From Loxodes magnus (lineage: Eukaryota; Ciliophora; Karyorelictea; Loxodida; Loxodidae), in contig CAMPDV010000192.1 in the NCBI GenBank assembly GCA_946699065.1, positions 248,001-312,000 of the forward strand: DNA of 64,000 nt, read 5' to 3'. Both the position numbers and the translations under genes were made by a program. The notes below the pieces were generated by a model that was not told the origin of the DNA, searched no databases, and saw only the letters and a program-made list of their open reading frames with translations. Below, piece after piece: positions 2,490-64,000 of the stretch (positions are counted from its first letter, which is position 1; every line of letters starts with the position of its first letter).

Positions 2490-2910
2490 ATATAATAAAT
2501 AAATATGTTTATAGAGCGCGTACCACACCGTTGGCGCGCAGCTCTTTCAGTATTAATATTTAATATTAATCAAGGTGTTCTCAAAAGCTTTATTTCATTC
2601 TATTCGTCAAAGAGTCACTTCATCTTCTCCAAATAGGGAATCTTCTTATCGAAAATCATTCTCGAATCTGAATCAAATGCTCCAGTCTTCTTGAATAAGG
2701 TCCAAACAAGAATTAGTTATTAAGTCATTAATTAGAAGGCCTTCAGTCAAACTTTCATACTTCTAGAGAGAATCCCCAGGGTAAGTTAGGCATGTCTCAA
2801 CTGAGTTTATCCACCCTTCCCCATGGCATCTAGTGCGAGATTACTCGCAATGCAGTATACACTGCACCAGATTACCTACTTATTCTCCTGACGCGGCCGA
2901 CATCCATTCT
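2490..2910 (-). repeat. 3'-terminal hairpin element, group A, copy 1
   Basis: This block of about 410 bp is repeated at 18590-18995 and 38720-39100, with a decayed copy at 11050-11320 on the other strand. All three better copies end at the same inner point (GACATCCATT on the plus strand). In element orientation it finishes with a stem-loop at 2513-2545 (AGAGC paired with GCTCT) and an ATTTATTTATT tail. The shared left and right ends suggest a discrete non-autonomous element or a LINE 3' UTR. I could not find a clear target-site duplication. Confidence 0.7.
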
Positions 2911-2919
2911 ATATTATAT

Positions 2920-3160
2920 ATAAAAAAAATTAAAAAGGATATAATTAAGTTTATAGTCTTAGAAAAGAGCTCCAGGGTTCACTTGTTTTTGTTCCTGCTC
3001 TTTCCTGAACTAAAGGACTGCGTATGACTACATTAGTCCGCCATCCTTGTCTCTCCCTCATCCACTAATTATCGTTATAGTTTCTTCTTCCATTTTTATA
3101 AACCTCGTTGTTTCTTGAGTTGTAGAATTTCTTTCTGTATACTTATCCTGTTCTTGTTGG
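2920..3160 (-). other. 3' untranslated part of ORF1 element
   Basis: This stretch follows the stop codon of the ORF1 at 3161-3784. It is repeated, diverged, at about 4880-5085 behind the second ORF1 copy, so it belongs to the same mobile element. No ORF2 lies between the ORF1 stop and the hairpin block. Confidence 0.5.
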
Positions 3161-3784
3161 TCATATTCTGAAAAGTTAGTCTAATATTTATTACTTGTTA
3201 ATTTTTTCAATTTCTTGTTTCTTCCAGCATTTTTTCCAGCAATGATTTTTCTAGCATAAATAGCACCGAATCTTTTTGCGATAATAATTGATCTTATTTA
3301 TTTCTTATTATTAGAATTCCGATTCGATTTCCATTGGGATATTTGATTATTAATCTTATTAATATTATAATTTCTAAATTATTACTTGTTATTATTCTTG
3401 CTTTTCTTAAAGTTGCTTTATTTGATATTCAATTTAAGAAAAATGAAATTGGAACATTTGAGTGACTTCGTTAAATTATTTATCAATTTATTCCAATTTA
3501 ATTACTATTTACGATTAGATTTTATCTAATGATTCATCTATGGATGGGAATTATAGGTTTAATTACTCCATTAATTTTTCTAGTAAGTTTTCTAAATTTT
3601 CTATTTTTTATCTTTGCTTTTTCAATTCATATTGGATATTTGATATCCTTTGCTGAACTGATTATGCAAAGGATTCCTTAGATTATTAATTTTTATCTTA
3701 TTAAGGCTATTCTTCAATTAAATTAGGTTATTCTTATTTTTTCAAGTATTCGTTAATAGAAGTCTATTATTTCTTAGGTGCCAT
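3161..3784 (-). CDS. LINE ORF1 (beta type), intact gag-like protein
   Basis: An uninterrupted frame of 207 codons runs from ATG (complement of 3782-3784) to TGA (complement of 3161-3163), with many TAA/TAG codons read as Gln. The N-terminus MAPKKQQTS is shared with six other copies in the window. Residues about 50-150 are rich in heptad-like Leu/Ile/Gln and should form a coiled coil (SNIQYELKKQRQKIENLENL). Near the C-terminus a zinc knuckle, CYLCQKNHCWKKC, has CX2CX3HX4C spacing, one residue shorter than the canonical CX4H. Such proteins trimerise and coat element RNA. A TATATATAAA stretch sits directly before the ATG. There is no adjacent ORF2, so mobilisation would need an enzyme in trans. 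It could be a domesticated gene, but the other copies are decayed, so a retrotransposon origin is more likely. Confidence 0.75.
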
Positions 3785-3799
3785 TTTATATATATAATA

Positions 3800-4870
3800 A
3801 TTTATTATAACATTATTGTTGCAATAACTTCTATAGTTAGCACGGCTTCTATAAATATAATTTTTATTAAAGCGAATTCATTTTAGTACTCTTTTTTATT
3901 TTTATTATAGTGAAAAGTTACTATGAAAGTTCGTGTTTTAATATCTTTTAAATTAATAAAAAATTAATATATTACTATCCTTTTGATAAATTTATTTTCT
4001 AAAAGATCTAATCAGTTCTTAAATTTAATTAAAGTATATTGCAATAAACAATAAATTTTCATATAATTACAAATCTTTACTAGTTGTAAACTGAAGATAC
4101 TCCTAATTTTAAGTTCGATTCTGTTTCGCCAATGAAAATAAATTTTTAAAAGTAAAATATCCAAGTCAAGAAAGATAAAATATTCCTTCTTTGATTATTT
4201 TATTTTATACATTTAAAGCAAAATAACTATTAATAAAATACAATTAAATATAAAAATTAGATAATATTTACTAACAAATAAAAGAATAACTTATAAATTT
4301 CTACTTATAGAGTTAAAAATGGGAAATAAAAATTGATTTAAAAATATATAAATTTATGAATATCTAATAAAAACAATATATTTTATTAATGAAAATTGAT
4401 AAAAAATTATATTAAAGAAAAAGAATTATATAGGCTATAAAAAGCTGCTTTCATTTTTTAATAATATCTTACTAATAAAAAACCAAAAGCTTATATTTTT
4501 AAATTAAATTTTTTAAATTAATGTTTCGAATTTAATTTAGCATAGATGAAAAATTCTCTATTAATTATTTATTTTCTGCTTTTTTATTAATAAACTATTT
4601 TAAATTTTTTAGGGCAGTTAATTTAAAAGATAAAAGATTAATTTATTTGTAATAAAATTTTATGTAAAATTTCCTTTGATGAAATTAAAAATTTCTTCCT
4701 AATATAGTTTGATTTTTTAACCGAAATATTAGAATATTTAAATTGAAAATTTATTCAGGCTTATTTATAGCTTATTAAAGAAACTTAAATTATATCTCTG
4801 AAATTTCAAAATTTTTATGACAAAAAATAAAATATATGTTGATACACGAAAGTTAATTTTACTATTAAAA
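3800..4870. other. AT-rich spacer
   Basis: No protein homology or repeat shared with the rest of the window was recognised. The sequence is over 80% A/T. Confidence 0.45.
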
Positions 4871-4879
4871 TAAAAAAAA

Positions 4880-7490: not shown

Positions 7491-7499
7491 ATAAATAAA

Positions 7500-7816
7500 T
7501 AGGGAGGAGCAATCCTCCAACTGAAACTGACTTAAACTCTGGTACCAAGAAGTACCCCATAGGTGAAGAACCAGCCAAGAGAAGAGAAGACAAGATCGAA
7601 GAGACATCAAGCAACATTAATGATGAAAGATGCCAGATACTAAGGTCTCTTGGGGTAGCATTCCAATCGCGGTCATATAGAAGACAAAACTCACAAAGGA
7701 ATGCTAGCACTGTGGAAGACTTCAGCAAGAAATCTTTTAACTTTAAAATTCTTTATTAAAGAGCTGCTCGCCATTAAGATGCTACGCGCTCTATAATCTC
7801 ATTTATTTATTTATAA
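7500..7816 (+). repeat. LINE 3' end with hairpin and ATTT tail
   Basis: The block is notably less AT-rich than its surroundings. One frame stays open with good protein composition (EEPAKRREDKIEETSS) and continues through the stem-loop at 7760-7792 as QRAARHQDATRSI, close to the reading in the copy at 47350-47640. The stem pairs AGAGC with GCTCT. A CATTTATTTATTTAT tail follows at about 7800-7815. This is the only strong plus-strand copy of the hairpin and fixes the polarity of the tail. Confidence 0.65.
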
Positions 7817-10394: not shown

Positions 10395-10750
10395 GGATTA
10401 TAGAGCGCGTAGCACTCTCATTGGTGCGAAGCTCTTTAAATTAATTTTATTTAATGTCGAAATCTTTTTTACGGATCTCTTTATCCCTGTTTTCTCTTCC
10501 TGCAGTACGTCCCTGTAATTTTTCCTTCCAAAGAATAGGATGCAATATGCGATTACGGGTACATCTTTCCCCAACCTACGATGAAGAAGGTTTTCTCCTG
10601 GCATTCAGAGTTCTCCAGCTTGTCGAATCTTCCTATTCTTGCTATTGGTTTCTCTTTCTCCGATTTATCCTCCGTCCGCGTTCATTTTTTAGTTGCCTTG
10701 CTGAGCCTCCAAGCAGCATCCGAAGGAAAGGGCTTTCCACTCTATTTAAA
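10395..10750 (-). repeat. 3'-terminal hairpin element, group B
   Basis: On the minus strand it ends with the stem-loop at 10402-10435, whose loop is a variant of the common one. Inside is a block around 10555-10620 (CTTCATCG.AGGTTGGGGAAA on the minus strand) that matches both halves of the duplicated block at 32366-32585. It is less AT-rich than the flanks and is cut off near 10750. No long convincing frame is present. Confidence 0.55.
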
Positions 10751-11049: not shown

Positions 11050-11320
11050 AGAGTTCTCGCTGGAAGTATGAACGCTTGACTGACGCGCTAGTAATGATTT
11101 AACTACTAATTCTTATTAGTCTTGTTCAAGAAGACTGAAGTATTCGGTTCAAAATTAAAGAATAATTTTTAATAAGCAGATTCCCATTTGAAGAAGCTGA
11201 CGTGACTCAATGGGCGAATAGAATAATAACAAGAAGTATGAGAACACTTTTTAATATTAAAATTGACAATGAACACCAACGAGATAATATGCACTCTTTA
11301 ACAATATTTATTTATTGTTT
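11050..11320 (+). repeat. 3'-terminal hairpin element, group A, decayed copy
   Basis: This aligns in opposite orientation to the inner part of the block at 2490-2910 (TTCTCGCTGGAAGTATGAA, GCTTGACTGACG, TTGTTCAAGAAGACTG). The hairpin region at about 11270-11302 keeps ACACCAACGAGA and a TTTATTTATT tail but has lost stem pairing. Confidence 0.55.
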
Positions 11321-11339
11321 ATTTATATAAGAATTTTAT

Positions 11340-13400
11340 ATTATAGATGGAATTGAAACTAAAACTTTATCCAGGAATTCATCATTTAAAACGATTTTGT
11401 CATTTTTTCAATTAATGAAACATTCGCAAAGAATAGTTTGACCTGCTAAAATACATGGATTTCTGACCTATAATAAAATGCTAATGGGAGAGAAGGTATT
11501 TGTATATTGGTTAAAAAGAACTAAGCACACGTCAAATAATTTAAGAGGTTGATGGAGAGCCCTCACTCAGAGCTTGCAAAATAAAACTTGACAATATACT
11601 CTTCACTTCCTACTACATACGAGATAACATCAAGACAACAGATATGAAAGATGAAGCTTATGTCATTCTTAATGAAATAACCAATGAGCTTCCTATTAAT
11701 GGTCACATCCTCCTTGGTGACTTAAATGCAATACTAGATTTCGGTAGAAATCCTCTTACTAACTACAATAATCTACACGACTAAAACAGTTTATATTATA
11801 GAATGACTTGTAGATAACCAATAACCCTATAGATAATACTACATTCATAGAGTTAGATATCAATATTACTGCAATGACTATATATAGGCAACCCAACACT
11901 TAAATATTGATTAATTCAATAATTTCTACACACTCTATGATCAACTAATCACTGATCATATTCCTATATCGGTCTAACTAGCAATGCAACCGAGAATGTC
12001 CCAAAATAACAGCAATTACTTTATAAAATAGATAAGCTACTTGATCATATGGACAGATTAAATAACTAAAATGAGTTTTAAGAAAATTTTCTTTTTTTTT
12101 GACTGTATATTAAGATAACTTAGATTTATAATATAATTTCATCACGAATTTACTTTAGAATAGTGCATTGAACACTTTAGAAATAGTTAAATAAAATACT
12201 AATTACAATAAACTCTCTAAGGATATCATCATGAAATATATAGCTGCGAAAAGAGAAAATTAGAAGTACAAGAGGCTGCTATTTATGCAAGGAAGAGTCA
12301 ATAAAGTAAGCCAATTCTATAATAGAAAAGTTAGAAGCAAATATATACAATCTAATTGGAAGTGGAAAAAACTCCAGACTAAAGGCAAGTTTCTCAAATT
12401 CAATGGGAACTAGCGAATGATGTTCTGATCAAGCGAAAAAATTATCAATTCTAAAATAAAGAATTAAATGAATTTTAACAAGAACTATAGGACTCTTTTA
12501 TTGATAATTGAGAAACTTTTGTACTTAACAAGCATTAAATATATTAATTAATTAATTTCAACTAAAAAAGTTTTTGGACCGGAAACTCCTTTCCAATTGC
12601 ACGACCCGATGCTCTCTTTTTATGGAATAACGGGGATATCCTGTTGTACTCCAGACACAGCTGCTAGGGAGCTCCATCGCTATGAGCAGCCAGGCTTCAA
12701 GCCCCTACCAAGAGCGGATAATCTCAAAGACAGTGTTCCCTTTCAAAAATGACTCTGACCAGGGACTTTCTCAGCGACAGGAAAGGAACTTGTTCCTAGC
12801 CATAAAGCCAGAAAGTTTAGTACAAAAGGTTATTCTCAATTCACACCATCTTTCAATTGTAAAACATTAAATATATTACATAGAAGCAACTTGAGTTCAG
12901 TAAACAATAACAGATCTCAATTATAAAGATTCATAAATTATCAATTATCCATCTTCTCCCTTAAAAAATTTTGAACTTTTCAAATTTTAAGAAATATAAG
13001 AAATCGTTGAGCATATTTTAAACGGAAAGGCAGCTGGGTCCGAAGGAATTAAGAGTGAACACATCATGTATGCTGGAAAAGAGATACTGATAATAATGCA
13101 CTGTTCATCAATAATATGTTAAGAATCTAAAGAATTCCATAAAAGTTGAATACCTCTATCATTATCTCTATTTTAAAGAAAGGTAGTAAAAAAAACTAAA
13201 AACCAATTTCAATTATTGATACTATACTGAAAATCTATGGCCAGACTTTAACAGAAAAAACTTATAAAATTCTTTAAGAGCGTAACGTCATACATCCAGC
13301 TTAAATAAGATTCCTCAAGAAGAGAAAAATAGCTTACTAAATATGATCATTGAAGCAGATTATTGACCTCTATTAAAGTGAAGAAAAATCTAAACAAATA
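11340..13400 (+). pseudogene. LINE ORF2 with endonuclease and reverse transcriptase, SINE-interrupted
   Basis: The APE-type endonuclease signature is clear: GHILLGDLNAILDFGRN at about 11695-11750, preceded by FTSYYIRDNIKTTDM. After about 1 kb of decayed sequence, the reverse transcriptase fingers appear as GKAAGSEGIKSEHIMYAG (about 13025-13080), followed by SILKKGSKKNQKPISIIDT. The later motifs A-C are absent, so the copy is truncated at about 13400. A SINE-like element (12547-12864) is inserted between the two domains. Several TGAs occur in frame, so it is not functional. In an active element this protein would nick target DNA and prime reverse transcription from it. Confidence 0.75.
12547..12864 (-). 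mobile_element. SINE-like element, copy 1
   Basis: This is a relatively GC-rich element (near half G+C) in very AT-rich surroundings. A perfect 14-bp target-site duplication, CATTAAATATATTA, flanks it at 12533-12546 and 12865-12878. The left end is a variable ATTAATTAATT tract, taken as the 3' tail, so the element is placed on the minus strand. The sharp 5' end starts AATTGAAAGATGG on that strand. It sits inside a LINE ORF2. The 62-codon standard-code frame inside it is not conserved as a protein under the ciliate code. Confidence 0.8.
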
Positions 13401-13419: not shown

Positions 13420-13910
13420 GAGAAAAAATTAAGATAATAAATTAATATAAAATGACAATTATATCTGAGATAGTAATGTTATAAATTATCTTCTTTATTA
13501 TTAAAAATCTCTCATAGATAAAAAAGGTTTTAGCAATTTAAGAAAAAAAGAACAAAAAATTTATCTGATTTTAATTTTAAAAGATATACATTTTTTATTA
13601 ATTTATTATAAATTAATAAAAAATTTAATAAAAATTTTCAAAATTTTATTATTATTTTTATTAAAAAGAAAAAAATTTATTGAAGGTTATAAATATATAA
13701 TTTAAGTAAAAAGAGTTTAATTTAATTTAATTATAAATAAAGAGTCATATTAAAGCTAAAATATCTCTAAATTTTAGGTTCAAAATTAATTATTTAATTG
13801 TATCTGCTTAATATAATATATATTAATAAAAATTAATATGCTTTATATCAAAAAATTTTAACAGTTTTTACCTTATATTAAATCTTTTTTAATTAGTTTT
13901 TAAATAAAAG
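13420..13910. other. AT-rich spacer
   Basis: No homology was recognised between the truncated LINE and RING gene A. Confidence 0.45.
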
Positions 13911-13916
13911 TTAATT

Positions 13917-15264
13917 TCATTTTATAAAATATATATAAGGAATCTATCCATTTGAACTATCTGTACCATTATTTGAATCTTCTCCTTCAAATTTTGTTTT
14001 TTTTAAATTTACTTTTATTTCTTAAGAACTTACTTCGCTATGGAGTGAATTTTTATAGCATGACTTTTCACTTTTTAAAAGTAACTTAATACTGTAAATC
14101 TAATTCTATTCAATTTGTATTTATTTATCAAACAATATTTTCTCAATTTTATTTTAATCATCTTTATTTTTTATTTCAACTGTTTTATCTAAATTAAAAA
14201 TAATCTCTGACTAAGTGCTTTCTCCCTTTAAAATTTTTAGTTCTTACACTTAAAGAATACTACCTACGTATGATGGTACAAATTATGCTATTCCACATAA
14301 TTTAGTATTTTTATTAGTTTTAAAACTTATGCAATCATAATTTTTGCCTGAAATAGCCCACCCCTTTGATAAATTTTCTAAATTATCTAATCTTTTTATT
14401 TCAATTAAATGATTCTCATCGAATTTATTAAATTCGTCTATTTTAATTTAAACCTTAATCATATTTTATAGTTATTTCATAATTTCTTAAAGTTGTTCTT
14501 CTAAAATTTCATAACTTAAATTCATTTAGAATTCTAATAAGGCTCCTTTTTAAATTTCGATTTCAGCTTATTCATATCTATGAGAAATTTATTAATATTA
14601 TTTTTTTATTTTCTTGGAATTATTAAAATATTTTAATTCTTTAATTTAGTTTTTCTATTTCATTTTATATTAATAACTTTTTCTAGTCTGAAGTATCTTT
14701 AAGATATTTTTCTTTTTCATCAAATAAATTTATTATATCTTTTATTGTTTTATCCTTCAATTAAATTAATTTTTAGCTAGAAGTGTTATAGAAACTTTCA
14801 AGCTGATTATAATTTTCTTGGGTTTTATCTAATCTTTAATGCAACTCTTCTTTTTAAAAAAGTATTTGCTTATTCAAATTTACAATATTTGGTTTCATTT
14901 CTTCAAAAATTTTTTAAACATATTAGACATCATGCTATTAATGATCACTGACTATGCATTTGAAGCATATTTATTATTTATCTTATTTACATCAAAATTC
15001 TTACTTTTCAGTATGTTTCTGACATTATAAATATTCTTATTCTTATTAATTTTAAAGTAATTAAATAATAGCGAAATTATTGGGTAATTAATCCGGCTGT
15101 TGATTAAACTTTTTTTAATCTAGAGGACAAGTAATTTGGTTTTAGAGGCTATAAATCTACTTAAGACATTCGATACATACCAAATGACCACATGGCAATG
15201 ATTTTGGAATTCTTTTCTAGATATCAATATTATTTAAACAAATAGGACACTCCAAATTCTACAT
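13917..15264 (-). pseudogene. RING/B-box/coiled-coil/PHR gene, copy A
   Basis: Predicted TRIM-like E3 ubiquitin ligase. Residues 6-50 hold a C3HC4-type RING (ECPICLNNIDI, LPCGHLVCIECL, CPLD). Residues about 80-105 form a B-box (CQKHTEKQEF, CFKC, then H residues). A Lys/Glu/Gln-rich coiled coil follows. The C-terminus is a PHR-like domain (GWAISGKNYDCISF, KLCGIAQF, IYSIKLLL, NGTDSSNGQIPY) ending in TGA at 13917-13919. Two lesions are visible. A TGA at 14992-14994 replaces an aromatic residue just before a B-box Cys (codon 91). A one-base deletion after LIDM in the coiled coil shifts the frame; the PHR part is then open to the end. Long stretches are identical to copy B, so duplication or conversion was recent. 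Confidence 0.8.
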
Positions 15265-15269
15265 TATTA

Positions 15270-16435
15270 AATTACAATAATTTATAATATTTAATAACTT
15301 TATTTCCTTATAAAAATATTAAAATTAAAATAATTATATTTATAACTTAGATGTATTATCTTTTAAAAGTTAAAACTAAATAAAAGAAATATTATTTTCA
15401 AATGTTATAAATTAAATTACGATACAATTTACTTTTTCGAACATTTTTAAGTTATTGCAATAAAAATTTTTATTTAATGAAAAATTATAATTTTATTAAA
15501 GCTAAGTAATAGTTCTATTGCAAGCTTCTATAGGCTGTTTAATTTTTAATATTTGTGGATTTATTTAAAATTAATTTTTAAATAAATTATAAATTTAGAA
15601 ATTTTAATTAAACACTTTAAATAAAAAGATTCTTTTCACATTTAATAGAACCATATGTTCAAACTAAAAATTTAAAAACTATTTAAAAAATTTTAATTTT
15701 TATATTCTAATTTTCATTAAAATCTAAATTTCTAGCGTAATTTTCACTGCTTATTAAAAAAATTATATTTTTAAATTGACAGAATAAATCAAAATAATGA
15801 TTAAAAAGATAAAATTTTATAAGAAATTATGAGTTTAAAACTGAAAATTATTTATTTGCAGAAAGTTTACTAATTAATAAAAAAGCATTAGAATAAAAAT
15901 TAAAAAAGAAGTTTTGTTAACGCTATGTATAATAAAATTTAGAATTAAAATTACTTAATATTTAAATTAATAAAACTATAAAATACTAAAGAAATAAAAC
16001 TATTAAAAAGATAAAATAAAAATATTTAATTAATAAAAATAATTATTATTATTTTTAATTTTTAAGAAAAGTTAAACTCATACTGATTTCTTTTCTTTGA
16101 ACGGTCTATTTAGGAATATAATAAGAAATATTACTAATACATTTCTGCAAATCATGATCACTACAAGTAATGAATACATACTCCATCTCATTAATTTAAG
16201 CAATTTTCAATACCAGAAAATCTTCTAAATTTGTTCTCTTCATTGAATCCAATCAACCATTATAAGTTTGGAAGTATAATCAGAAATTCAAAATCTTATT
16301 TTCACTGATTATTTTACTTAAAAATTTAAATAAAGGAAAGATAATTAAGACTAAGATTTTAAATATTGTAAAATATATACTGATTAAATAAGAAACTTTA
16401 AAATTCATAATTTTATAGCTTAACATATTTTATTA
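15270..16435. other. AT-rich spacer, weak coding remnant at 16075-16265
   Basis: Mostly A/T runs. On the minus strand at about 16075-16330 two adjoining frames read protein-like stretches (LIILPNLQWLIGFNEENK; EYVFITCSDHDLQKCISN) joined by a frame change. I could not assign a family. Confidence 0.3.
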
Positions 16436-18029: not shown

Positions 18030-18570
18030 TTAAATGGATGTTGAGCTCTAGTTAACTAAGTAGATAATCCGATGTAGTGTATTCTTCATTGCAAGTACTC
18101 TTGTAATACATGACATCTCGGATAATAAGGATGTGCACTTTGTGTGATAAGCCTTTTTATTTGAGGATTCTTTCCATCGATACGAGAATCTGACTAAGAG
18201 CACTGAAATTCAAGTCTCAGATTTATCCTGTCTTTACGTGTCGTTAAACTGGTCGGAAATTAGAAAAAACCTAAAGATATGACTGAGATCAGAAATAATT
18301 TTTATTTAGATAAATTTAATTCGAATGTGGCATTTGATACAAGAAGCGAATTATCCTATAACCCCTTTTAACTCCTACCTTCTAATGGAATCAATGGAAA
18401 TTAGAGAAAGAAGTTAAATCAATTTTTATTGAAAAATGGAGAAAATTGGAAAATAAGAGCTAAGAGAGCAGGTGAAGCTAGAACATTACTAAATTTTATT
18501 GTTAATAAAATTTAGCTTCTTTTATTAATCATAGTGAACTTAATAAAGGTGAATTCACGTTAATATATTA
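18030..18570 (+). repeat. 3' region of ORF1 element, diverged from group A
   Basis: It begins AAATGGATGTTGAGCTC, comparable to the AATGGATGTCGG start of group A blocks. It keeps scattered matches (ATTGC.AGTA.TCT.G) for about 150 bp. It ends with AATAAAGGTGAATTCACG, a terminus also seen at about 27495 and 37752. This looks like the 3' end of the plus-strand ORF1 element at 17249. Confidence 0.5.
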
Positions 18571-18589
18571 TTTATAAATAAATATGATT

Positions 18590-18995
18590 TTATAGCGCGT
18601 AGCATCTCGTTGGCGTACAACTCTTTCAATATTAATATTTAATTCTAAAAAGTGTTCTCAAACTTCTTTGTTGTAATTCTAGCTGTTCAATGAATCACGT
18701 CAGCTTATCTAAATAGGGAATCTGCCTATTAAAGATTATTCTCGAATCTTAAACCAAATGCTCCAATCTTTATGAATAAGATCCAAATAAGAGGTAGTAA
18801 TTAATAATAGGCACGTCAGTCAAACTTTTATACAGATAGCGAGAACTGTATGACAAGTTTGGCTTGCTTCTTTCAAAATTGTCCACCCTTCCCCGTGATA
18901 GCATCTAGTGCGAAAATGCTCGCAATACAGTATATACTGCAACAGCATACCTACTTATTCTCCTGACCACAGTTGACATCCATTTTATTACATAA
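18590..18995 (-). repeat. 3'-terminal hairpin element, group A, copy 2
   Basis: Full-length relative of 2490-2910 with the same inner end (GACATCCATTTTATTA). The stem-loop at 18593-18625 is weakened at its base. The tail reads TAAATAAATAT on the plus strand. It abuts the 3' terminus of the plus-strand element at 18030-18570. Confidence 0.7.
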
Positions 18996-19380: not shown

Positions 19381-19391
19381 GCAATATAATT

Positions 19392-19721: not shown

Positions 19722-19953
19722 AATATAATTAGTAAAGTTTTCATAAATCACCATATTTTAAATTTAATAAAATATTCTATTACTTCTTTTTAAATAAATA
19801 TAAAATGAACAAAATAGATTTTTAATTTTTCCAATATTAAGAAAAATTCTAAAAATATATAAATAAAAATAAACAATATTGCATTGAAATTCTTTAAAAA
19901 TATTCTATCATTTGCAAAAAGTTATAATTTTTATTACTGTAATTTACTTGCAA

Positions 19954-23560: not shown

Positions 23561-23569
23561 AATAACTGA

Positions 23570-28965: not shown

Positions 28966-28973
28966 ATTTAAAA

Positions 28974-39100: not shown

Positions 39101-39104
39101 ATTT

Positions 39105-43895: not shown

Positions 43896-43899
43896 AATA

Positions 43900-44335: not shown

Positions 44336-44339
44336 TTAA

Positions 44340-47349: not shown

Positions 47350-47640
47350 TTAAATAATTAAATAAATAAATTTGATTATAGAGCGCGTAGCACCTCCTTG
47401 GTGCGCAGCTCTTTACATATCTCAATATATGTCCGTTTCTTCAAGTAAGCCTTTAGGTAATAGAAATTCTTCTCTTATTAGTTACATATCTTCCTCATTT
47501 TCCTCTACATTTTCTCTTGTTCTTCTGTCTTCTACCTATCAACGTTTTATAAGATTTTTATTGCAAGTTTAATTTATTTTTTCTTACATATCTTACTAAT
47601 TTTCATTTCTAATTCTTTTCTTCTTGATCAAGCTTTTATA
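47350..47640 (-). repeat. LINE ORF2 C-terminus with hairpin, group C, copy 2
   Basis: A stem-loop at 47380-47412 with perfect outer stem (AGAGC/GCTCT) follows an AATTAAATAAATAAA tract. In element orientation one frame reads KGLLEETDIY-stop-DMQRAAHQGGATRSI through the hairpin. It continues without a break into the minus-strand ORF2 at 47640-49970, so here the hairpin is joined to its LINE. Confidence 0.75.
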
Positions 47641-49970
47641 TACTCAAAAAATTATCCTTTTCCTGCTCTATAGTATTTTCCTATTTCTTTTTTTCATTCA
47701 ATTTTCTTTTCTATATATCCTCTTTTCCTTTATTCTAATATATCTTTGATATAATCTTTTATTATCAAGTCAGCTTTAGCTCTTTTTACTCTTCTTAGGT
47801 TCTAATGAATTTCTCGAAATTGGCTGTACCTTATATTATATCAAATAGTTCCATTCCTTATCTCTCTACTCCTATTGCTCTAAGATTTCAAATACATTAT
47901 TATCTTCCTTCTTTGCATTCTGAACAGCTGTCTTTGACATGCCTTTCATTTTATCTTGCATTGTTACAGAAAGGGCATTGACTTGTCATGACTAGGTGTC
48001 TTTCTTTTAAGCAATCTTAGCTCCAATTACATCTCGTTCTTATTCTAAATAAGTAACATATTTCTTCTTTACTATTTTTATTATATCTCAGGTAGTTGGG
48101 TGGTCTTACTACATATTCATCAAATCATGTTTTTCTATATTGTAATGTTGTTATCATTTATTCCATTCTTTCTCTATCTTCTACTTACTCTATATTCTCA
48201 TATTGCCCGATTAATGTTTTTTTTCCTTTTTAATTATTATTGCCATCATATATAAATGTTTCTTTGTCTTCAATTTTTAATTTTATTTTTATTGTTCTAC
48301 AATATTGTTAAAATATAAAATTTTCTTCTTTACTTAGGTCGAGCAATAATCCGTCAACTGTTTTTCCTTAGTTTCCTATTAATTTGTCTCTTAATCTCAA
48401 CATTTTTTGTCATAGGTAATGTTTACATTTCATAAACTGCAATTCGTGTTCTAACATCTTATTTTTCCCTTAAAAAGGTGCGTCTATGATTGTTCATAAA
48501 GATCTTCTCTATATTATTTCTAATTGCTCCATCACTTATTTTTCTACAAATTATTTGCAATATGGGACCACTTCTGTCCCATAACTGAAAACTGAGCTTA
48601 AGAAGAGTTTTTATCATTATTCCTGCATTATATGGTGTTAATCCCTTATTCATTGTTATTTTTCTCAATATTCATGCTTATATTTTTATGCTGCTTCTAG
48701 TCTTTTCTCTATGTTTTTTCAAAACTGATGCTCTCTTCTATTATATGACCTAGGTACTAAAAGGTCGTTACTCTTTCGATCCTTAAATTTCCCACCTCGA
48801 TAGTATTTTTAATATTTTCTCAGTTACTAATTTCTGCTGATTTTCATATCATTCATTTTGTTTTATCTTTAATTCCAATTTGTACTTTTCTGCCCACTAT
48901 GTTAAATTTTCGATTACTTCCTCTAATTATTCCCATTCACTTATTAAGTCTAGATCATCTGTATATGCAAAACATCCTGCATATATTTCTTATGTTCATC
49001 CCTCTTCGTTTTTAAGGTTTATCGTAACTCCTAGCTTTTAATCTTCCAAACTATGGAGAAATCTTGCTATTATCAAGTTAAATAATCTTGCCAATGTTAT
49101 GCTTCCCTGTTTTAGCCCTTTATTTGTCGCGAATGATTTTACTATTTAATCATTGATTTTCAGTTTAATTTCTTCTTCACAGTAGAAGTTTGCTAGAAGT
49201 TTAATTATCTATTCCGGTACTTTTAGATCGTTTAGGATTAATCATATATCTTTTCTTTGCCCTGAGTCAAGCTTTCTTAATATAAACAAATTTTAAAAAT
49301 AAATCTTTTTGCTTCGCATAGACCATTCCTATACTGTTCTTAGATTGAAAATTTATAGTGCGCATGATTTTTCTTTTTTGAAACCATATTAGTATTCGCT
49401 TTCATCACTATGAAGATATCCTTACAATTGTTGGAAAATTCAAGCGTCTACAATTTTTTAAGCATGATTCAATAAAGAGATTGGTCTTTAGTTCATTGGG
49501 TTAATCTATCCTACTTTTTTTTATATTAATATTATGTATTGTTTTTTCATCTCCTAAGATATTACTCCCTCTTAAATCATCTTAGCTATCATTTTGCAAG
49601 TTACTTCTATTAGTTTTTTTCCACCAGCTAAAATTGTTCTTACTTAAATTTCATGAGGTCCTACTGCATTTTATTCCGCCAATTAATTAATATTTTTCAA
49701 ATTTCATATTCGTTTACCACTATTTGTCTCTTGTTTAAGAATTTAGTTGGTATCGTATTATCGCCATCTTCATATAACTGCTATCATTCTTTCATGAAAG
49801 TCTAGTTTCTTCCACATTTCTGTCAGGTTTCCTTTATTTACATTGTCCATAGATAGGTTAAGTTAGTTTCAATTCAATTCAATTTAAATTTTCTGCAGTA
49901 GCTTCAAGCCGCCGCATAAAATAAAAGTTTTTTAATCTTGGTGGTTTTTCTTCTTGATTCTCTCTTGTCC
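47640..49970 (-). pseudogene. LINE ORF2, reverse transcriptase without endonuclease
   Basis: Read on the minus strand: NAVGPHEIQVRTILAGGKKL (finger region, about 49650), NQRPISLLNHA, QYGFKKEKSCA, LKQGSITLARLFNLII (motif B), AGCFAYTDDLDLIS (motif C with intact YTDD, about 48960), ENLTQWAEKYKLEL. Several TGAs are in frame and motif A is eroded. The gap between the intact ORF1 (stop at 50080) and the RT finger is only about 300 bp, too short for an endonuclease domain (normally about 230 residues), so it was deleted or never present. It forms one element with the ORF1 upstream and the hairpin downstream. Confidence 0.8.
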
Positions 49971-50079
49971 CAATTCTCATCTTCTCTATTCTTGAAGTTC
50001 TTGATTGTTTTTATTTTTTCTTGTATATTTGTCCGTCTTTATTGCAATACAGTTTCTTCCTTTCCTTTTCTTCTTTAAT

Positions 50080-50754
50080 TCAGTATTCTTTCTTGAATTT
50101 CTAGAATTTCTTACATCTTCTGTAAAGATGATTCTGGCTTTTACAAAAGTAACATTTCTTCTTTATCTTTCTAGCCGGCTCCATCTTGATTACCTGCTCT
50201 TCTTCTATTTCCATTTAATCGATCTTAGGAATTTCTTGTCTCTAACTTAATATTATTTCCTTATTCTAATCTTGTATCGTTTTTATTGAGGCGCTCATCT
50301 GTTTCAACTCTTCCTACTGATACTTCCAGAGAGTGTCAAGCTCCCTTTCCCAATTTGCCATTCGAAGCTCTCTTGAGTCCTGTTGCTCAATTAAATCCAT
50401 TAGCTTCGTATTTTCCCTCTTGAGCTTCTTAACCTCTTCCTATAGGTTTATGACTACCTTGATTAGTTGTTCTATGCTCAACTACCCGGATGGATAGACT
50501 TCCGACACCTCCTAATGTAGAGCCGACTTAGGCTGCTTCCTTGGCTTTTCCTGCGTTGACGGAGTGAGTTCATGGCTTGTCCTAGCAATTGGATATTCTT
50601 CCCTGGGTAAGGAAGATTAATATTACTTCACCGGAGTTTAGTCTTATTAAGAAGAAAATTAGGGTTAAGTGTAAGACGACTAATTAAGAGTGGCTTCTGG
50701 TTTCCTCTCCTATTTCTTGGAGGTGGTGTAGAAACCTTTCTTTAAGCCTTCCAT
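50080..50754 (-). CDS. LINE ORF1 (alpha type), intact
   Basis: An unbroken frame of 224 codons from ATG (50754) to TGA (50080-50082), using TAA/TAG for Gln. N-terminus MEGLKKGFYTTSKKQERKPE; a Gln/Ser-rich linker; EKPRKQPKSALHQEVSE..PSGQLSIEQLIKVV; a coiled coil from about residue 98 to 170; then a CCHC zinc knuckle CYFCKSQNHLYRRC (residues 201-214, CX2CX4HX4C, all ligands present) and a basic end. Trp residues use TGG. Gag-like RNA-binding protein of a non-LTR element, cytoplasmic or nuclear RNP. Six decayed relatives lie in the window. It is far less AT-rich than its flanks. Its own ORF2 is broken, so selection on this copy is uncertain. Confidence 0.8.
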
Positions 50755-51249
50755 GTTAAGTTAGTTTCTTTTATCTTTTTTCCTTGATTAAAAATGTATT
50801 CTTGTCTTCCTCTTTGATATTCTCTATATTTCTCGTTTTATTTATTTTAATTTATTTCTTCATTGTTCTTTATCCTTTATTCCAATTGTTCGCTGCATTT
50901 TCTAAAAATTTTATTGCACTACTTCTTTTTTATGAGTATTTATATATCTTAAAGTTTTATGCTTTAACTGTTCCACATACCATTTGAGCTTCTTCTTATA
51001 TCTTTTTCTTTCATATTTTGTAAATCTACGTACCATTTAGGCATTCAATTTCTTCTTCTTAAATATTTTCTTGTATAAATCTTTCAAATTTTTCTTAGAT
51101 CTCTTTTTTCTTTAATAGTAAGTAATTTATTTTTGTTATCTTTAATGGTTTTCTAACTTCTTTAACAATCTTTATCTATATAATACCAGATCTATGTCCC
51201 CTATTATGTATGAGTAATAAAAATCACTTTTTATCACGTTTACTCTTAT

Positions 51250-51800
51250 TATCTCTTCAATAAAAAAGTAATCTACTTTATATTCATTGTTTTAGTTAAC
51301 GAAAGAACCTATTTCAATTGGATAGGCGTATTAAATTATTCTGTTTCATGAACTGTAGCATTCTCTTACCAGCTGAGTTTGTTTTCTTTGGTAGTCATTA
51401 CTCTATGTGTGCATTTCAATCTCCTATGATCATTACATTAAGTTCTTTTTCTGTTGCTTATAGTTTAATTCGTTCACTAAGTTATAGAATGGCTCATATT
51501 ATTAGTTGTCATTTGCCAAAGGTGCATATATATTTATTAATGCCTAGTTTTCTCCTTATTTCAATGGCCATCACTCTCGCTCCTCCAAAAGTGTCATTTG
51601 TCGTTTCTAATATAGTATGATATTCATTTCCCTTTTTTTGACCTCACATTTATTAAGTTTTTATATCCTGATATATTACACATATCTTTCTAGTCTTCAA
51701 TATAAATCTCTTATATTGCCATTATGTGGATACTTTTTTGAGTCATGAATTTGACTAGTGTCTCTTTTGCACTTTTAACTCTCATAACATTTGCTGTCTC
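51250..51800 (-). pseudogene. LINE APE-type endonuclease domain
   Basis: On the minus strand: IHIMAIQEIYIEDQK (AIQE, catalytic Glu region), ISGYKNLINVRSKKG, FGGARVMAIEIRRKLG, then after a frame change INKYAPLANDNQQYEPFYNLV-like sequence (the YAP motif), and LNVMIIGD-stop-NAHI, where GDxN normally carries an aromatic or Leu. Sequence beyond 51250 is decayed and there is no RT before the next element starts at 50754. This is the 5' half of a LINE cut by insertion of the 47350-50754 element. Confidence 0.7.
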
Positions 51801-53640
51801 TATTTTTATGACTTATTCTTATTCTTCTTTTTCACCTATCTCCTCTGCTTCCTCTTCATCGCTTTCTTCTTTTTATTCATCTTCCTTCTCCATCTTTCTT
51901 TCATCTTATCTATCATTCTCTGCTTCCATATTCTCTTCATTATTAGTTATTTTACCTTTTTTATATTTTTCAACTTATAATCTATCTTTTCCTTCTTATT
52001 TTCTATTCTATTCTATTCTTTTTCTTTTAACTTTTCCTATTAACTGTTGTTGGGTAATTCCTCATTTTTGTTTTTTGGTTTCTTAGGATAGTAATTTCTA
52101 ATTAAAGTTTGTTTCAGTTTGCTTCTTACTTCTTACTTTTATCTTATATTTTATTCTTTTTGTTCTTGAGATTGTTCTATTTCTTTTTGTTATATTTCTT
52201 AATTTACGCTTTTCCTTACATACTATATTATGGTATTTTGTTTGTTTCTTATTTCTTCCGTTAGGGTTTAGCATTTTTACCATCACTTATACTATCCTTT
52301 TCTCTGATTTATTTATATTATATCTTACTATATAATAATTTGTTTTCTATTTTATTTAATTCTATGAAAATTTTTCTTTCCTTTCGCCTTACATATGTCC
52401 AATTCCATTTTGATGAAAAATAACTCTTACTTTTTCATTTACCATAAAAGACATTTTATCATTTATTTGTTAGCTGTTTTAATTATTTTTCTATTATTTT
52501 CGTTTTATTTCCTTCTCTTGTTCCCTTGCTTCCTCTATAATCATTTACTTTCCTTCTTCAATTATCCTCTTATGTGATTGATTTGCTTGTAATTCTGGTT
52601 TGTTTATTGTTAATTTAACTTCTCCTTTAAGCATCTCTAATTCTCTTGTATGTAGTTTTTTCCTTTTTGCTACTTCCATCCTTCTGCATTGCTAATCTGT
52701 GGGCCCTTTCAAGTTGCATAGATAGCAGATAAAATTTACTGGGTGCTGTATTCTCATTTTATTTCCGTTCAGGTTTAGTACTTCTGGTATCCTCTTTGCC
52801 TCGCCTATATCCTTTAAATTTAAGTATACTACTGCTACCTGTTAGCATTGTAGTGTTTGGGTTTGTATGATATACCTCTCCTCTAGATTTTCCATATTGT
52901 CTCATTTCTTCCATTACTTCCTTCATGTTTGAGTCTTCGTTTATTATGAAGTAAATTGGGTAGTTATGAATGTCAAAGTATTCATTAGTTTCTTGCTTAG
53001 ATAGGAATTCTAAACCTTTGAATGCTCATTCCCTGAATTAAGCAAATTGCTAGTATCTTTCTCCATGTTGAATTATAGATATACTATTCCGTTTTATTTG
53101 ACGATTAATTTGGCCACTACTTGTCCGTACTAACTCCATATTTTATTCCTAAACACTTGTATCACTTCTTAGTCTATGGGCTTTTTCTCTACTAAATCAG
53201 TATTTTCCAGATAGTGGTTAAAATATACTGCGACCACCATATCTGATAGATCATCATAGTCATTTTAGTAGACTCTTACCATTTAGTCTTCAGGGACGTT
53301 GGCTGAAATTAGTTGTTCGTTCTTTTATTAAATTTTAGCTTATGTTGTGACTTTTTTTTACCAATTCATTCCTTTTTTATTATATACTCCTCCTTTTAGT
53401 GAAGTTTGTCCAATCATAGATATAATGATGTTCTTTTCCGTTGAGGGTATTATTATATCATGTTTCTTTTATCAGTGAAAATGGTTTCGTGTAGTCTAAG
53501 AGCTTGAGTTATAAGTTTGGTTTCCATTCGTAATAAAGAAGGTTGGACTAATTAAAGCGAAGAAGTGCTTCAGGTTTTCTCTCCTACATTGAGAAAGTGG
53601 TGTAAAAACCCTTCTTGAAGCTAACCTTTTTTTAATATAT
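51800..53640 (-). pseudogene. LINE ORF1 with RRM-like domains and zinc knuckle
   Basis: It begins SFKKGFYTTFSMQERKPEA, the alpha N-terminus with the ATG lost. A TGA follows, and then EQLISANVPEDQMVRVYQND. Two RRM-like units come next: around 53080-53250 WSQYGQVVAKLIVKQNGIVY, and around 52780-52880 VAVVYLNLKDIGEAKRIPEV. A knuckle follows, FICYLCNLKGPTDQQC (about 52700), without the His. The end is acidic then basic low-complexity sequence (51800-52330). At least two frameshifts and several TGAs. RRM plus CCHC is the common ORF1 layout in many LINE clades, and differs from the coiled-coil ORF1 at 50080. Continuous with the endonuclease downstream. Confidence 0.6.
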
Positions 53641-56509: not shown

Positions 56510-57465
56510 TATTTAAAGCAGCCGATTACACATCTGCCGCTTAAAGTAAGTTTGCAAGTCCAATTTTTTCTCCATTTGCTTTGGTCCCTAATTTCTTATA
56601 CCTCCATGTCCTGTTAATATCAGTTTTATTTTCTCTTTATTTCCTTTTCTTCTGTATATTTCTCCATCCATATTGTAAGAAAATTTTTCTTGTTTTTGCT
56701 TATATTTCTTTCAATATTTTTTTGAAGTTTTAATGATTCAAACATTACTTATATGTAAATCTTTCCTTAAGACAATAGCAGCAGTTTTTAATTAATGTCT
56801 GGTTTTGCTTTATTTCACTTTGTTCTATTTCATTTTTTTTATATTAAAGAAATTTAAATATCTTATTTTTAGTTCTAAAATTCGGATTCAATTTTTTAAT
56901 CCTGCTTGCTAATTTCTTTTAATTAGAAATTAGTCTGGCTTAACTGATCTTTTCATAGGGCCCAATCTACTTCTCTTAATTAGCCATTCTCAAATCTCAA
57001 ATATATTAGAGTCCATAGAATTTATTTATGTCAGCTTAGTGTTTTCTTTTCTGAGTTTCTTAAGTCTTCCTGAAGGTTTAATACATTTTTGATGAGTTAA
57101 TCTATGCTCATCTAGCCAGAAGGATTAAATTCTGTGGCCCCCTTATGTAAAACGGACTTCACTCACTTCTTAAGGTTTTTCTCCAAAATTAATCTCATTT
57201 CAGCATGAATGTTTTCTGCAGCTTTTTCCACTCTTCGTATTTTTGCTGCATTTTGGGCTCTTACTTCCTTGGAATTGGTAAAAATTCCTTTCTAAGGTAC
57301 GACATCGTTTTTTCTTTCAAAATTTTTTATATGTTAAAAATGGATAGCTTCTGAAGGATTTTTTACCACTTACTCAGAACAGGAAAGAAAGTTAGAAGCA
57401 CTTTTCCTTATCACATCTTTACTTTAATAAGTCCAACCTTCTTCAAGCCAACATATAGAGGCGCT
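56510..57465 (-). pseudogene. LINE ORF1 (alpha type), decayed
   Basis: On the minus strand: EFNPSGQMSIDQLIKNVLNL and QEDLRNSEKK match the alpha core. A knuckle CCYCLKERFTYKQC has Phe in place of His, and NMDGEIYRRKG matches the post-knuckle NKDGQIYKKK of the intact copy. The 5' end near 57465 carries a rearranged GGCTTGAAGAAGG leader. Frameshifted; inserted inside RING gene F. Confidence 0.65.
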
Positions 57466-59065: not shown

Positions 59066-59377
59066 TCATTCATAAATAAAATTTCAATAGATTAAATTTT
59101 AATCAAATTTAAGAAAATAGACTTCAAAATCTATTTTTATTTTTTAAACTAAATTCCCTTTATATCTCATTTTAAAATTTAAAATTTTTATGAAAGTTAT
59201 TTTTTATTTGGATATATTATCTAATTAAATTAAATTAAATAATGTTCGCCTTTCAGCTTAATAATCTAATTAAATAATTAAAAATATTTTAAATTAAATT
59301 AAAAAAAGTCATGTAAATTCAATTTTTTAATATTTTCAAAGATAGGAATGTTTTAAATCTTAATATTAAATTTATTA

Positions 59378-59694
59378 TAATTGAAAAGATGGTGGGAGCT
59401 GAGAATGACCTTCGTGACAACACTTTCTGGTTTTATGGCTAGGAACAAGTTCCTTTCCTGTCGCTGAGAAAGTCCCTGGTCAGAGTCATTTTCTGAAGGG
59501 AACACTGTCTTTGAGATTATCCGCTCTTGGTAGGGGCTTGAAGCCTGGCTGCTCATAGCAATGGAGCTCCCTAGCAGCTGTGCCTGGAGCACAACAGGAT
59601 ATCCCCGTTATTCCATAAAAAGAGAGCGTCGGATCGTGCAATCGGAAAGGAGTTTCCAGTCCAAAAACTTTTTTAGTTGAAATTAATTAATAAC
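59378..59694 (+). mobile_element. SINE-like element, copy 5
   Basis: Target duplication AAATTTATTA at 59368-59377 and 59695-59704. The body is almost identical to copy 4, including the 3' end GTTGAAATTAATTAATAAC. The near identity of copies 4 and 5 shows recent mobility or recent segmental copying; their different target sites favour transposition. Confidence 0.85.
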
Positions 59695-59704
59695 AAATTT
59701 ATTA

Positions 59705-61430: not shown

Positions 61431-61437
61431 TTAAAAA

Positions 61438-62040
61438 TGGTACCTAAAAAATAATAGATTTCTCCAGCTAAATCTATAACTAATCAGATTTTTCTAATGA
61501 TTTTCATTTGCTACAATTTGATAATTGGAAAATAACAAAAGGGATTTAAGATCTTTAATAAATAAAATAATCTCTTGAGCTAACAATTAGCAAATTGATA
61601 AATAAATAGAATCCTAAGCAATAAATTAAATAATTGACTATTTCCTAGGAGATGGAAAGGTAGATTATTCAAATTGAATGTAATTTAAGATAAGGTTTTG
61701 GCCGGAGGATCAGTTAACTGGAACATACCAAGCTCAACTAACGATCAGATTTTGAGTAAAAAGGAGAGGGAATCCGTCCTTAAGCTTCTCTTATTAGAAA
61801 AATTTTTTGTATATTATTATTGCAATAATTATGGATATACAAGTAGGATTTGGCTTCCAAACATTAGCACGAGGAGAAAAGTAGTAATTTATAAAGATTT
61901 ATGGTCCGATAAAGGCTGATTTATATATCATCGAAAATTACTGATAAGAAAAAACTTCTGTAAACTCTAATTTTCTAGCTTAACAAATAAAGATGAGGTC
62001 ATTTATTCTATTATGCTATTATGTTAAGAATAAAACTAAC
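61438..62040 (+). pseudogene. LINE ORF1 (beta type), decayed
   Basis: It starts MVPKKQQISPAKSITN with the usual AAAATGGTACCTAAAAAA context. TGA occurs after about 60 codons. A degenerate knuckle (FFVYYYCNNYGYTSRIW) lies near 61805-61850, and the end (TNKDEVI) matches the copy at 17249. The 73-codon standard-code frame at 61698-61919 covers this knuckle part. Confidence 0.55.
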
Positions 62041-62479
62041 AAATTAACTCAGGAATCATAGCATAAAGCTATAAATTTTTCCAAAATTAAATAATTAGAA
62101 AATAGATCTAATTAATTATCTTAATATACATTTATAAAGAAATTTCATTTTATAATAAAGCCTTTTTTTAAAAACTAAATTAAATAAATTAAGGTTTTTT
62201 TTTAAGCAAATTAAAGAAAAAATAATGAATTGGAAAATTTTTTTAAATCTTATATAAATAGGTAAAAAAGTAAGAGAAAAATAGACCAGAAAACTTCAGA
62301 AAAAATTAAGAAAATTATCTCTAAATAAAACATCAGAAAAATGTTTTAATTGTGCTAAATTAAAAATTTCTTTCTCTACGACTGAATTATTGAATATGTA
62401 AAAAATTTAAAAAGAAATGTAGAATTTATATAAAGATACGATTAAATTTAAATTTAAACTTAAAAATATTTACTGAAAT

Positions 62480-63765
62480 CTATAATTGATAGAGTCATTT
62501 CTTTCAATTAAAGATACTAATTTTTTAATGTTCATTACAATACTTTCTCTTCCTCAGACATTTTTTTCAGTTTCTCATTATTCAAACTTTTCCAACGTAA
62601 ATAATTATAATCTTCATTCAAGTAAAATTATTGTAGCATTTTTATTTTTAATTTAAAAAATTATATTTTACTGATTGGAAATTAGTTAATGTAAGTTTGT
62701 TCGTGCAGTATGAGACACCCTAAATCATAATCATCCGTTTTACTTAAGTCATTCCTTAATACCAATATAAAATATGCAATCCATGTCATTTAAATTATCA
62801 AATCCTCCACTAATACAAAAGGGATTTTCAGCAGGGTAGTGATAATCTCTGAGATTTTGCTAAATTGTAAAAATACATCCTTATTTTATATATACTATTT
62901 ATCTCTATTCTAAATTGCTTATCCAGTGTTGTATATAACATATAAGGAAGCTTTTAGGTGCTTTGAAATTATTCAATAAATATTTTTGCATTTTATATTC
63001 TATTATATCTATAAGTTGCAACTCTATAAAATTAAACCTCAAATTTGTTCTTTATATTTCTATTAAAAGCTTTTATGCTGTAGTTTTGTTCTTAACTGTC
63101 TAGCTCGATATTGTAAGATGTAAATAATCGTTAAACATCATTAAAATATTAATTTTTCATATTTTCTAAATAAATTACTATAGTTGATTAATGGAATTTG
63201 ATTTTTTTTTCTTATGCTATTAAAAAAATTGTGGAAATCTCTGTTCTATAATATGCTTAAAAGATATTCAGTTAAAATTTATAAACGTGATTCATTAAAA
63301 ATTTATTCATTTTTTTAAATGTTTTTCTAGTTAAAAGGCTTATAATTGCATTGATTCTACTCATTATGGCAGAGATTCCATTTTGCGTTTTTCAAGGCAT
63401 TAACTCACCTATGTATTCTGCTTTGGGAATTGTAAAAAGTTTTTGAAATGTCACGGTGACATATTTTTATACCTTAGCAGTTAATAAAAAGCTTTTTATC
63501 ATTGCCACTAGATATTTGGAGGTTATTTTCATACAATGATTTTTCAGATTCTTTTTTAGTGTAGATGGATTTCTAAATACGTAACTTATTATTTTTAAAT
63601 GATTGGTTAAGTTTCAATCTTCCAATTAATTTAGAACTCGTCAATTTTATCTTTCTACAAAAATTAGAAAGCTTCATATTTGGAATACTTTTTAATAATT
63701 AAGTTCAGCCAAAAACTATTTTCGTTTTTTAATTGTTACATATTTTTAATTGATTTAGATAAATA
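62480..63765 (-). pseudogene. LINE ORF2, C-terminal part
   Basis: The minus strand reads KLFTIPKAEYIGELMP-stop-KT, matching NLPKAEYGNNIKPWAT at 47300 with Trp changed to TGA, then MSRINAIISLLTRKTF and further decayed ORF2 C-termin al sequence. The catalytic RT motifs are not present. The right edge meets the TAAATAAATAAA tract of the group D element at 63770. Confidence 0.55.
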
Positions 63766-63769
63766 AATA

Positions 63770-64000
63770 AATAAATAAATTTGATTATAGAGCGCGTAGC
63801 ACTCTCGTTGGTGCGCAGCTCTTTAAAAAAAATGTTTCATACTGACAAGAATGTTTGTTACTGATAAAATTATCAGATACTGATAAACCTTGTTCAATAC
63901 TGGTATAATTATTCAGTACTGATAAACCTTGTTCAATACTGATATAATTTTAGAATACTCGTAATCTTTAATACTTGCTGGAGGTCCAAGGACATGGCAG
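63770..64000 (-). repeat. 3'-terminal hairpin element, group D, copy 2 (cut by window end)
   Basis: TAAATAAATAAATAAATAAA then the stem-loop at 63789-63822, with perfect outer stem, followed by the same TACTGATAAA-type short repeats as at 32135-32340. It continues past 64000. Closely similar to copy 1, so it spread recently. Confidence 0.75.

Follow-up and report, generated by a model that had tools for sequence, protein, structure and literature searches.

A 3′ stem-loop common to LINEs and unrelated short elements in the karyorelict ciliate Loxodes magnus

Introduction

Certain long interspersed elements (LINEs) depend on a stem-loop near the 3′ end of their RNA. For the zebrafish ZfL2 LINEs, deleting or swapping this stem-loop is reported to abolish retrotransposition, and the region of the protein between the endonuclease and the reverse transcriptase (RT) is reported to bind it (PMC4176376). 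UnaL2 is likewise reported to require both its stem-loop and a TGTAA repeat for retrotransposition (PMC5135761). Here we describe a comparable hairpin in the ciliate Loxodes magnus, in a stretch of 64,000 nt from one contig (hereafter the window), where it stands at the 3′ ends of a LINE and of short elements with different bodies.

The hairpin and the ATTT repeat tail that follows it are very probably the 3′ recognition end of a Loxodes LINE of the apurinic/apyrimidinic endonuclease (APE) type, co-used by the short elements, in a stringent-type system of a LINE and short interspersed elements (SINEs) like that of UnaL2 and UnaSINE1. A preliminary description of the window, made from its letters, had viewed the hairpin as the recognition signal of a LINE lineage used by several non-autonomous partners. 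The results below support this view; that a protein reads the hairpin is what we infer.

Results

Hairpins in the window

The hairpins and the LINE body are as follows, with strands in element orientation:

47380-47412, minus strand: hairpin of a LINE of the C subfamily; ATAATC and ATTT repeats come next, toward lower coordinates
23285-23317, minus strand: hairpin of a LINE copy truncated at its 5′ end (body 23318-23561)
32135-32168, minus strand: hairpin of short element A (body 32169-32632)
63789-63822, minus strand: hairpin of short element A (body 63823-64000, incomplete at the window edge)
10402-10435, minus strand: hairpin of short element G (body 10436-10750)
2513-2545, minus strand: hairpin of short element B (body 2546-2912)
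18592-18624, minus strand: decayed hairpin of short element B (body 18625-18988)
38734-38764, minus strand: decayed hairpin of short element B (body 38765-39102)
7760-7792, plus strand: hairpin of short element D (body 7497-7759)
about 11264-11297, plus strand: tenth hairpin, badly decayed, at a B-family end (within the B match 11052-11330)
47413-53000, minus strand: LINE body, degenerate coding sequence (the upper limit of 53000 is a guide only)

The nine stem-loops of the preliminary description were all present, with one correction, from 18593-18625 to the 33-nt unit 18592-18624. All but the one at 7760, which is on the plus strand, lie on the minus strand. They scored 26–41 against a 41-nt consensus. 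The highest null scores were 12 (three mononucleotide shuffles) and 16 (five consensus strings run on five first-order Markov sequences), and a chance origin is excluded. The tenth copy, absent from the earlier list, was found by rescanning; it is recognized by its B-family body, because its hairpin scored only 16.

The outer stem AGAGC/GCTCT, which had been taken as common to all nine, has both arms intact in six (2513, 7760, 10402, 32135, 47380 and 63789) and decayed arms at 18593, 23285 and 38734. Similarly, the TATAATC after the hairpin is exact in six copies and reads TATAAAC, TAAAATC or TACAATC in the remaining three, while an ATTT-type tail is present in all nine. The loop is more variable than the “CAACGAGA-type” first noted, with CATTAAGA at 7760 and AAGGA at 23285 and 47380.

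The LINE and its 3′ end

The LINE copy at 47413-53000 is 85–88% identical to LINE copies elsewhere in the genome across 1.5 kb. It has an endonuclease motif region at ~51700 and an RT region at ~49650-48870 with a YTDD motif, followed by the C-terminal part and a last TGA at ~47422-47424, nine nt before the hairpin. In this copy hmmscan gave Exo_endo_phos_2 at 4.4e-05, under its curated cut-off, and did not detect RVT_1. The copy is interrupted by an insert at ~50750-49900 (minus strand, limits by eye), which translates as a coiled-coil-like stretch and a CCHC-like knuckle; frames resembling it, again by eye, are found at 24122-24540 (plus) and 57100-57400 (minus). The truncated copy at 23285 gives a hairpin-anchored match of 244 nt that is 91% identical to the 47380 copy.

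Coding copies of the LINE were sought in the genome, scanned as 705,730,643 bases in 7,843 contigs. (The macronuclear assembly of L. magnus is reported as 706 Mbp, and the two nuclear genomes as much alike; PMC11441545. The genome scanned would then be macronuclear, where the preliminary description had spoken of the germline.) A search with RVT_1 gave 3,403 first-look candidates, from which 150 loci were scored and listed, leaving rarer families under-sampled. As expected for the ends of coding LINEs, the hairpin, either AGAGC/GCTCT or its AGTGC/GCACT variant, follows the RT in 35 of 39 distinct RVT_1 loci, in sense orientation and ~1.3–1.5 kb past the RT domain. The 39 loci comprise the 30 top RVT_1 loci (29 with the hairpin) and nine further distinct ones (six with it); the latter came from 12 downstream stretches, nine with the hairpin, of which three were duplicates of loci among the first 30. 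On contigs C5131 and C20, RVT_1 copies recur every 2,532 bases, with the 3′ part of the LINE in tandem arrays.

One read-through frame (locus L031) contains both RVT_1 (4.1e-36) and Exo_endo_phos_2 (2.5e-11), and the best PDB match of its ORF2 stretch, by sequence, is L1 ORF2p (2.5e-22). On these matches the LINE is classed as APE-type, with a predicted APE-class endonuclease and RT in one open reading frame (ORF). In-frame stops occur in each of the 150 listed RT domains (TGA 3–9, TAG 1–5, TAA 6–13). In L. magnus, UGA is reported to mean either tryptophan or stop, with no other stop codon (PMC11441545), and coding UGA is reportedly depleted shortly ahead of the true stop (the Loxodes paper). 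For the latter reason the last in-frame TGA was taken as the stop of the LINE. In the frame common to F1 and H, two of the LINE lineages treated below, it precedes the hairpin by 12 nt in F1 and by 8 nt in H, and the 3′ untranslated region (UTR) of the LINE thus consists essentially of the hairpin and its tail.

Short elements with unrelated bodies

The same hairpin stands at the ends of RT-bearing LINEs and at bodies A, G, B and D, and the stem-loop is succeeded by a short tandem repeat (ATAATC and ATTT; a T-run in H). In the window, the short bodies measure ~260–460 nt. That of element A (32169-32632) is ~460 nt long and has a TATCAGTATTGAACA-type repeat near its 3′ end; that of G (10436-10750) is ~310 nt long; that of D (7497-7759, plus strand) begins with AAATAGGGAGGAG and has relatives at loci L090, L085 and L092. 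In blastn against the available LINE sequence, which included ~7 kb upstream of the window LINE hairpin, none of the six bodies compared (A, G, B, D, E and L086) had a match with an E value below 0.005; the 5′ end of the LINE is not certainly covered, and a short 5′ piece could be missed.

A total of 84 hairpins, from 72 loci and the window, were sorted by body into F1 (36), A (30), G (8), C (4), B (3), H (2) and D (1), where three F1 places were counted twice through overlapping loci, the assignment of L009 to C is weak and one G is very divergent. The F1, C and H bodies are mutually alignable over more than 1.3 kb, and A, G and B align only within their own families, up to ~540, 346 and 391 nt, respectively. 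Near-identical pairs of A (L019/L020 and L028/L029) continue into common flanks. The earlier division of the upstream sequences into at least four groups that do not align beyond the hairpin was right in kind, except that the group formed by 23285 and 47380 is the LINE itself, and that A and G have an internal domain of ~60 nt in common.

This core domain is present in two copies in A and in one each in G and L086, on the plan CAGAGG[GGG..CCC-AUAAUCG-GAC..GUC]CCUCUG-CUUUGG. Across the four sequences 95.7% of cells are paired, with a covariation of 0.306 that 26 of 500 shuffles matched, which is suggestive, not proof, of the structure. The three-helix plan prompted a comparison with the RNA of the signal recognition particle (SRP, 7SL), in which two SRP RNA copies from the genome were set against A, G and B. 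An SRP origin of the A/G core received no support, all 12 comparisons falling below the best of 100 shuffles; the closest was G, with a score of 36 (shuffle mean 26–27, maxima 41 and 38), which leaves a kinship of G with SRP RNA conceivable in the strict sense. The 30 listed SRP RNA matches are all on contigs C93, C273 and C421 (31 of 459 candidates were scored). A tRNA origin was likewise rejected for the short bodies (ARAGORN, 0/6), and Rfam gave nothing at gathering in the window, with only weak matches, far below gathering, in the A and G regions. We use “SINE” here for a short non-autonomous retroelement; judged by sequence, these elements do not appear to have the classical head derived from tRNA, 5S or 7SL RNA.

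Nine variant hairpins were preceded by B (three), D (three, two of them composites), E (two, partly like D) and a new body, L086. In the composites, L085 (contig C32) and L092 (contig C237), D with its own hairpin and tail is followed, after ~50 nt, by a second hairpin of H type. Because about 20 of the 95 genome copies with a changed A3 (see below) show this second-hairpin form, the D composite, of which two bodies were read, may have been amplified.

Pieces of these elements were counted in the genome at up to three mismatches, with the two strands given as a sum; the reversed-pattern control gave 0 + 0 each time. The 34-nt hairpin had 3,486 + 3,546 = 7,032 matches. The 33-nt form had 1,821 + 1,659 = 3,480, a pattern that takes in both LINE copies and short elements, among them B and D, whose hairpins differ from the pattern by a few bases. 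A 34-nt piece of body A had 2,352 + 2,434 = 4,786 matches and one of body G 622 + 565 = 1,187, each commoner than 35 nt from the final codons of LINE F1 (549 + 430 = 979); the ratios are only rough, since evolutionary rates differ among these pieces. Of the first 30 exact matches of the hairpin in the genome, 27 belonged to A and 3 to G. LINE-end and hairpin matches coincide, as at C7:1892366-1892400 (F1 codons) and C7:1892417-1892449 (hairpin). The 5′ flanks of element A are TTATTATATA-rich ahead of the TTTAAAA start, at varying distance (27 copies profiled), possibly reflecting an insertion-site preference.

Related LINE lineages have altered hairpins

Relative to F1, RT identity is 91% for C, 67% for H, 53% for X and 29% for Y (C910); the tree includes RTs of the L. 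magnus genome only, and its bootstrap is not settled. The divergence of the hairpins tracks that of the RTs. At 91% the outer stem is the same, F1 and C both having AGAGC/GCTCT. At 67% one pair is swapped, giving AGTGC/GCACT in H, with a T-run tail (TTAATCAAAGTTTTT) in the two LINE copies read. At 53% the arms are wholly different: in the more distant family X, CGTGG/CCACG takes that position and is succeeded by ATAAT and an ATTT tail (4/4 loci read). The X hairpin has 55 + 48 = 103 genome copies, and all 20 that were sampled have X LINE body in the 154 nt upstream (17 nearly identical, at 0.95–1.0, and three diverged, at 0.48–0.62, with kinship judged by eye). The H hairpin is also carried by one short-element locus, L086, with matching arms and a similar tail start, so the H lineage probably has a short partner.

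Weak X-type matches occur in the window at 22580 (minus), 27530 (minus), 37716 (plus), 18511 (plus) and 16485 (minus), with scores of 15–19 against a null maximum of 16, and the 3′ end of LINE X is also matched by 18462-18574. The matches at 22580, 27530 and 37716 have a common repeat body, ~70% alike, and X-type ends may therefore have short partners as well.

Fold and covariation of the hairpin

The F1 hairpin folds into 5 bp, a 1-nt bulge, 2 bp, a 3-nt bulge, 5 bp and a 5-nt loop, at −15.1 kcal/mol. The predicted folds of F1, C and H have the order 5 bp, U bulge, 2 bp, UAC bulge, 5–6 bp and a loop of 3–5 nt (3 nt in H), and that of A/G has a 4-bp inner stem and an 8-nt loop. Fold z scores were −2.78 for F1, −2.13 for C, −1.89 for H, −1.29 for a second H form and −2.33 for X. 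The stringent-type consensus is described as a loop of 5–7 nt, a stem of 8–10 bp and a bulge 4–6 bp from the loop (PMC5135761); in F1 and C the loop is of 5 nt and the bulge lies 5 bp from it, but the base pairs add up to 12.

Covariation was assessed in 16 real hairpin copies from different families, in which 95.3% of cells pair. Its value was 0.188, compared with a shuffle mean of 0.115 (0/500 reached it) and at most 0.111 for slid structures. Compensatory stem changes are present, few in number, at the outer pair 3-31 (U-A in the H lineage instead of the A-U of the main one) and the inner pair 13-19 (C-G or U-A), and are absent at pair 4-30. A complete lack of covariation, which the preliminary description would have taken as a refutation, was thus not observed. 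Among 95 genome copies in which A3 is changed, 66 have a Watson–Crick partner and 77 a standard partner at position 31; most of them look like one inherited H-lineage change.

Other repeats in the window

A separate repeat family of ~1.5 kb is found at 13551-15281, 19933-21642, 28863-30318, 33137-34902 and 44239-45684. ORFs (code 6) that overlap it, at 14995-16077 (minus) and 43632-44768 (plus), encode RING and, in one, a B-box. A repeat of ~320 nt, 77–96% alike and lacking the hairpin, lies at 12536-12874, 19383-19711, 35143-35514, 36581-36903 and 59363-59701.

Discussion

The anatomy of these ends, their copy numbers, the minimal 3′ UTR of the LINE, the unrelated short bodies and the lineage-specific stem changes are all directly observed. 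Because this anatomy corresponds closely to that of the fish LINEs, the same mechanism is the best supported. Most likely, the LINE ORF2 protein, with its endonuclease and RT, would bind the stem-loop in its own RNA, and target-primed reverse transcription would begin in the short repeat tail just past it. Further RNAs with this hairpin at their end would be copied by ORF2 as well. The hairpin end would have been acquired by four or more non-coding short families whose bodies are unrelated (A, G, B and D; also the D-related E), and these would have spread by it, in dependence on the LINE. The related LINE lineages have altered hairpins at the corresponding position, and one short element has the hairpin of the H lineage.

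Several observations weigh against this reading. The 34-nt A/G form folds at a z score of only −1.08, a level that 27 of 200 shuffles equalled, and the E form at −0.02. The covariation rests on two pairs only, and the number of pairs changed on both sides is 2, against a shuffle mean of 1.6 (297/500 as high). The A3-changed copies have G·G at pair 2 in 16 of 95 and U·U at pair 11 in 21 of 95, and among 122 G4-changed copies a standard partner at pair 4-30 was seen in only four of the 100 listed. We read such uncompensated copies as dead or decaying, which is an assumption, and they add no support. The main hairpin is missing from four of the 39 RT loci: L066 is an X-family locus whose hairpin differs, the RT of L069 is only 29% identical, L035 is unexplained, and L070, whose RT is 97% identical to F1, has no hairpin within 2.65 kb. 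Finally, target-site duplications were unrecognizable in the AT-rich flanks, where the longest common strings were 6–11 nt (given without a null).

It is unlikely, although worth weighing, that the hairpin is a signal for the 3′ end or stability of the transcript, such as a terminator or processing stem-loop, and that mobility uses only the ATTT tail. A LINE 3′ UTR of nothing more than hairpin and tail would place such a signal there too, and the tail repeat could prime alone. However, a host signal should not track RT lineage, and in the H lineage the arm and the tail have both changed (AGTGC/GCACT with TTAATCAAAGTTTTT); the short element L086 has the matching H arms and a similar tail start. 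It is more improbable still that the short elements arose from one LINE by internal deletion, so that their 3′ UTR is common by descent without selection on a signal. Element A does have ~20 more nt in common with the LINE directly before the hairpin (GTATTGAAACATTT..TTAAAGAGC), including the region of the last TGA, and for that reason its end must have come from the LINE; the ends of B, D and G, however, have little in common except the hairpin. With no body matching the LINE better than the E value above, in spite of the ~7 kb upstream included, and a LINE 3′ UTR of 8–12 nt plus hairpin and tail, internal deletion of one LINE, which the preliminary description had put up as its own counter-case, did not hold. 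A DNA-level terminus as in Helitrons, where a short 3′ hairpin is also common to elements with differing interiors and is followed by a fixed CTRR end, can be set aside as scarcely credible, since ATAATC and a variable ATTT tail follow this hairpin, one LINE copy is 5′-truncated, and the autonomous partner encodes RT and endonuclease (no search aimed at Helitron proteins was made).

A LINE end shared with SINE-like partners is a known strategy, here in a new host, in which related LINEs have different versions of the hairpin. It extends to a karyorelict ciliate the stringent LINE/SINE partnership that has been demonstrated experimentally in fish and insects, and it provides abundant short repeats with an identity, in a genome where most repeats are unclassified. 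The terms SINE, non-autonomous, short interspersed, hairpin and stem-loop have no occurrence in the main text of the Loxodes paper, and in a search of the openly accessible literature, mainly by title and abstract, we found no report of the Loxodes hairpin. Several hairpin versions and several partners coexist in this one genome, and the three graded hairpin classes, with their RT distances, offer a natural experiment in the joint change of a LINE protein and the tail of its RNA; the same series bears on whether a changed hairpin sheds parasites. A bolder and rather doubtful idea is that of a modular SINE system, in which the ~60-nt core is joined to various heads and to hairpins from two LINE lineages, and in which the LINEs, through divergence of the hairpin from lineage to lineage, retain or shed their parasites. 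The CGTGG/CCACG lineage (103 copies), with its own LINE body in 20/20 sampled, may be cited for such a loss. If the idea were true, a whole arms race over one RNA hairpin would be on view in a single genome.

Among ciliates, the Tt.REP LINE of Tetrahymena resembles the Loxodes LINE in having a conserved 3′ end of 54 bp, of which the macronucleus is reported to retain 169 copies, separate from most of the LINE (PMC6564038); the words stem-loop, hairpin and SINE do not appear in the main text of that report, and the likeness is one of description. The putative SINEs of Paramecium are similarly short, multi-copy, non-coding sequences in a ciliate. They differ in that no 3′ end shared with a LINE is named and that stem-loop and hairpin are absent from the main text (PMC5405496).

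The closest counterparts are the stringent-type systems of UnaL2 and UnaSINE1 in the eel and of the LINEs ZfL2-1 and ZfL2-2 in zebrafish, described, like that of Loxodes, as having a short, bulged 3′ stem-loop common to a LINE and an otherwise unrelated SINE. UnaL2 is further alike in the short tandem repeat after its stem-loop (PMC5135761), and ZfL2 in that related LINEs of one genome are reported to need their own stem-loops (PMC4176376). Unlike these systems, that of Loxodes is known here from sequence alone and belongs to a karyorelict ciliate; its repeat is ATTT (a T-run in H), its LINE 3′ UTR is reduced to the hairpin, and at least four SINE-like partners use one hairpin.

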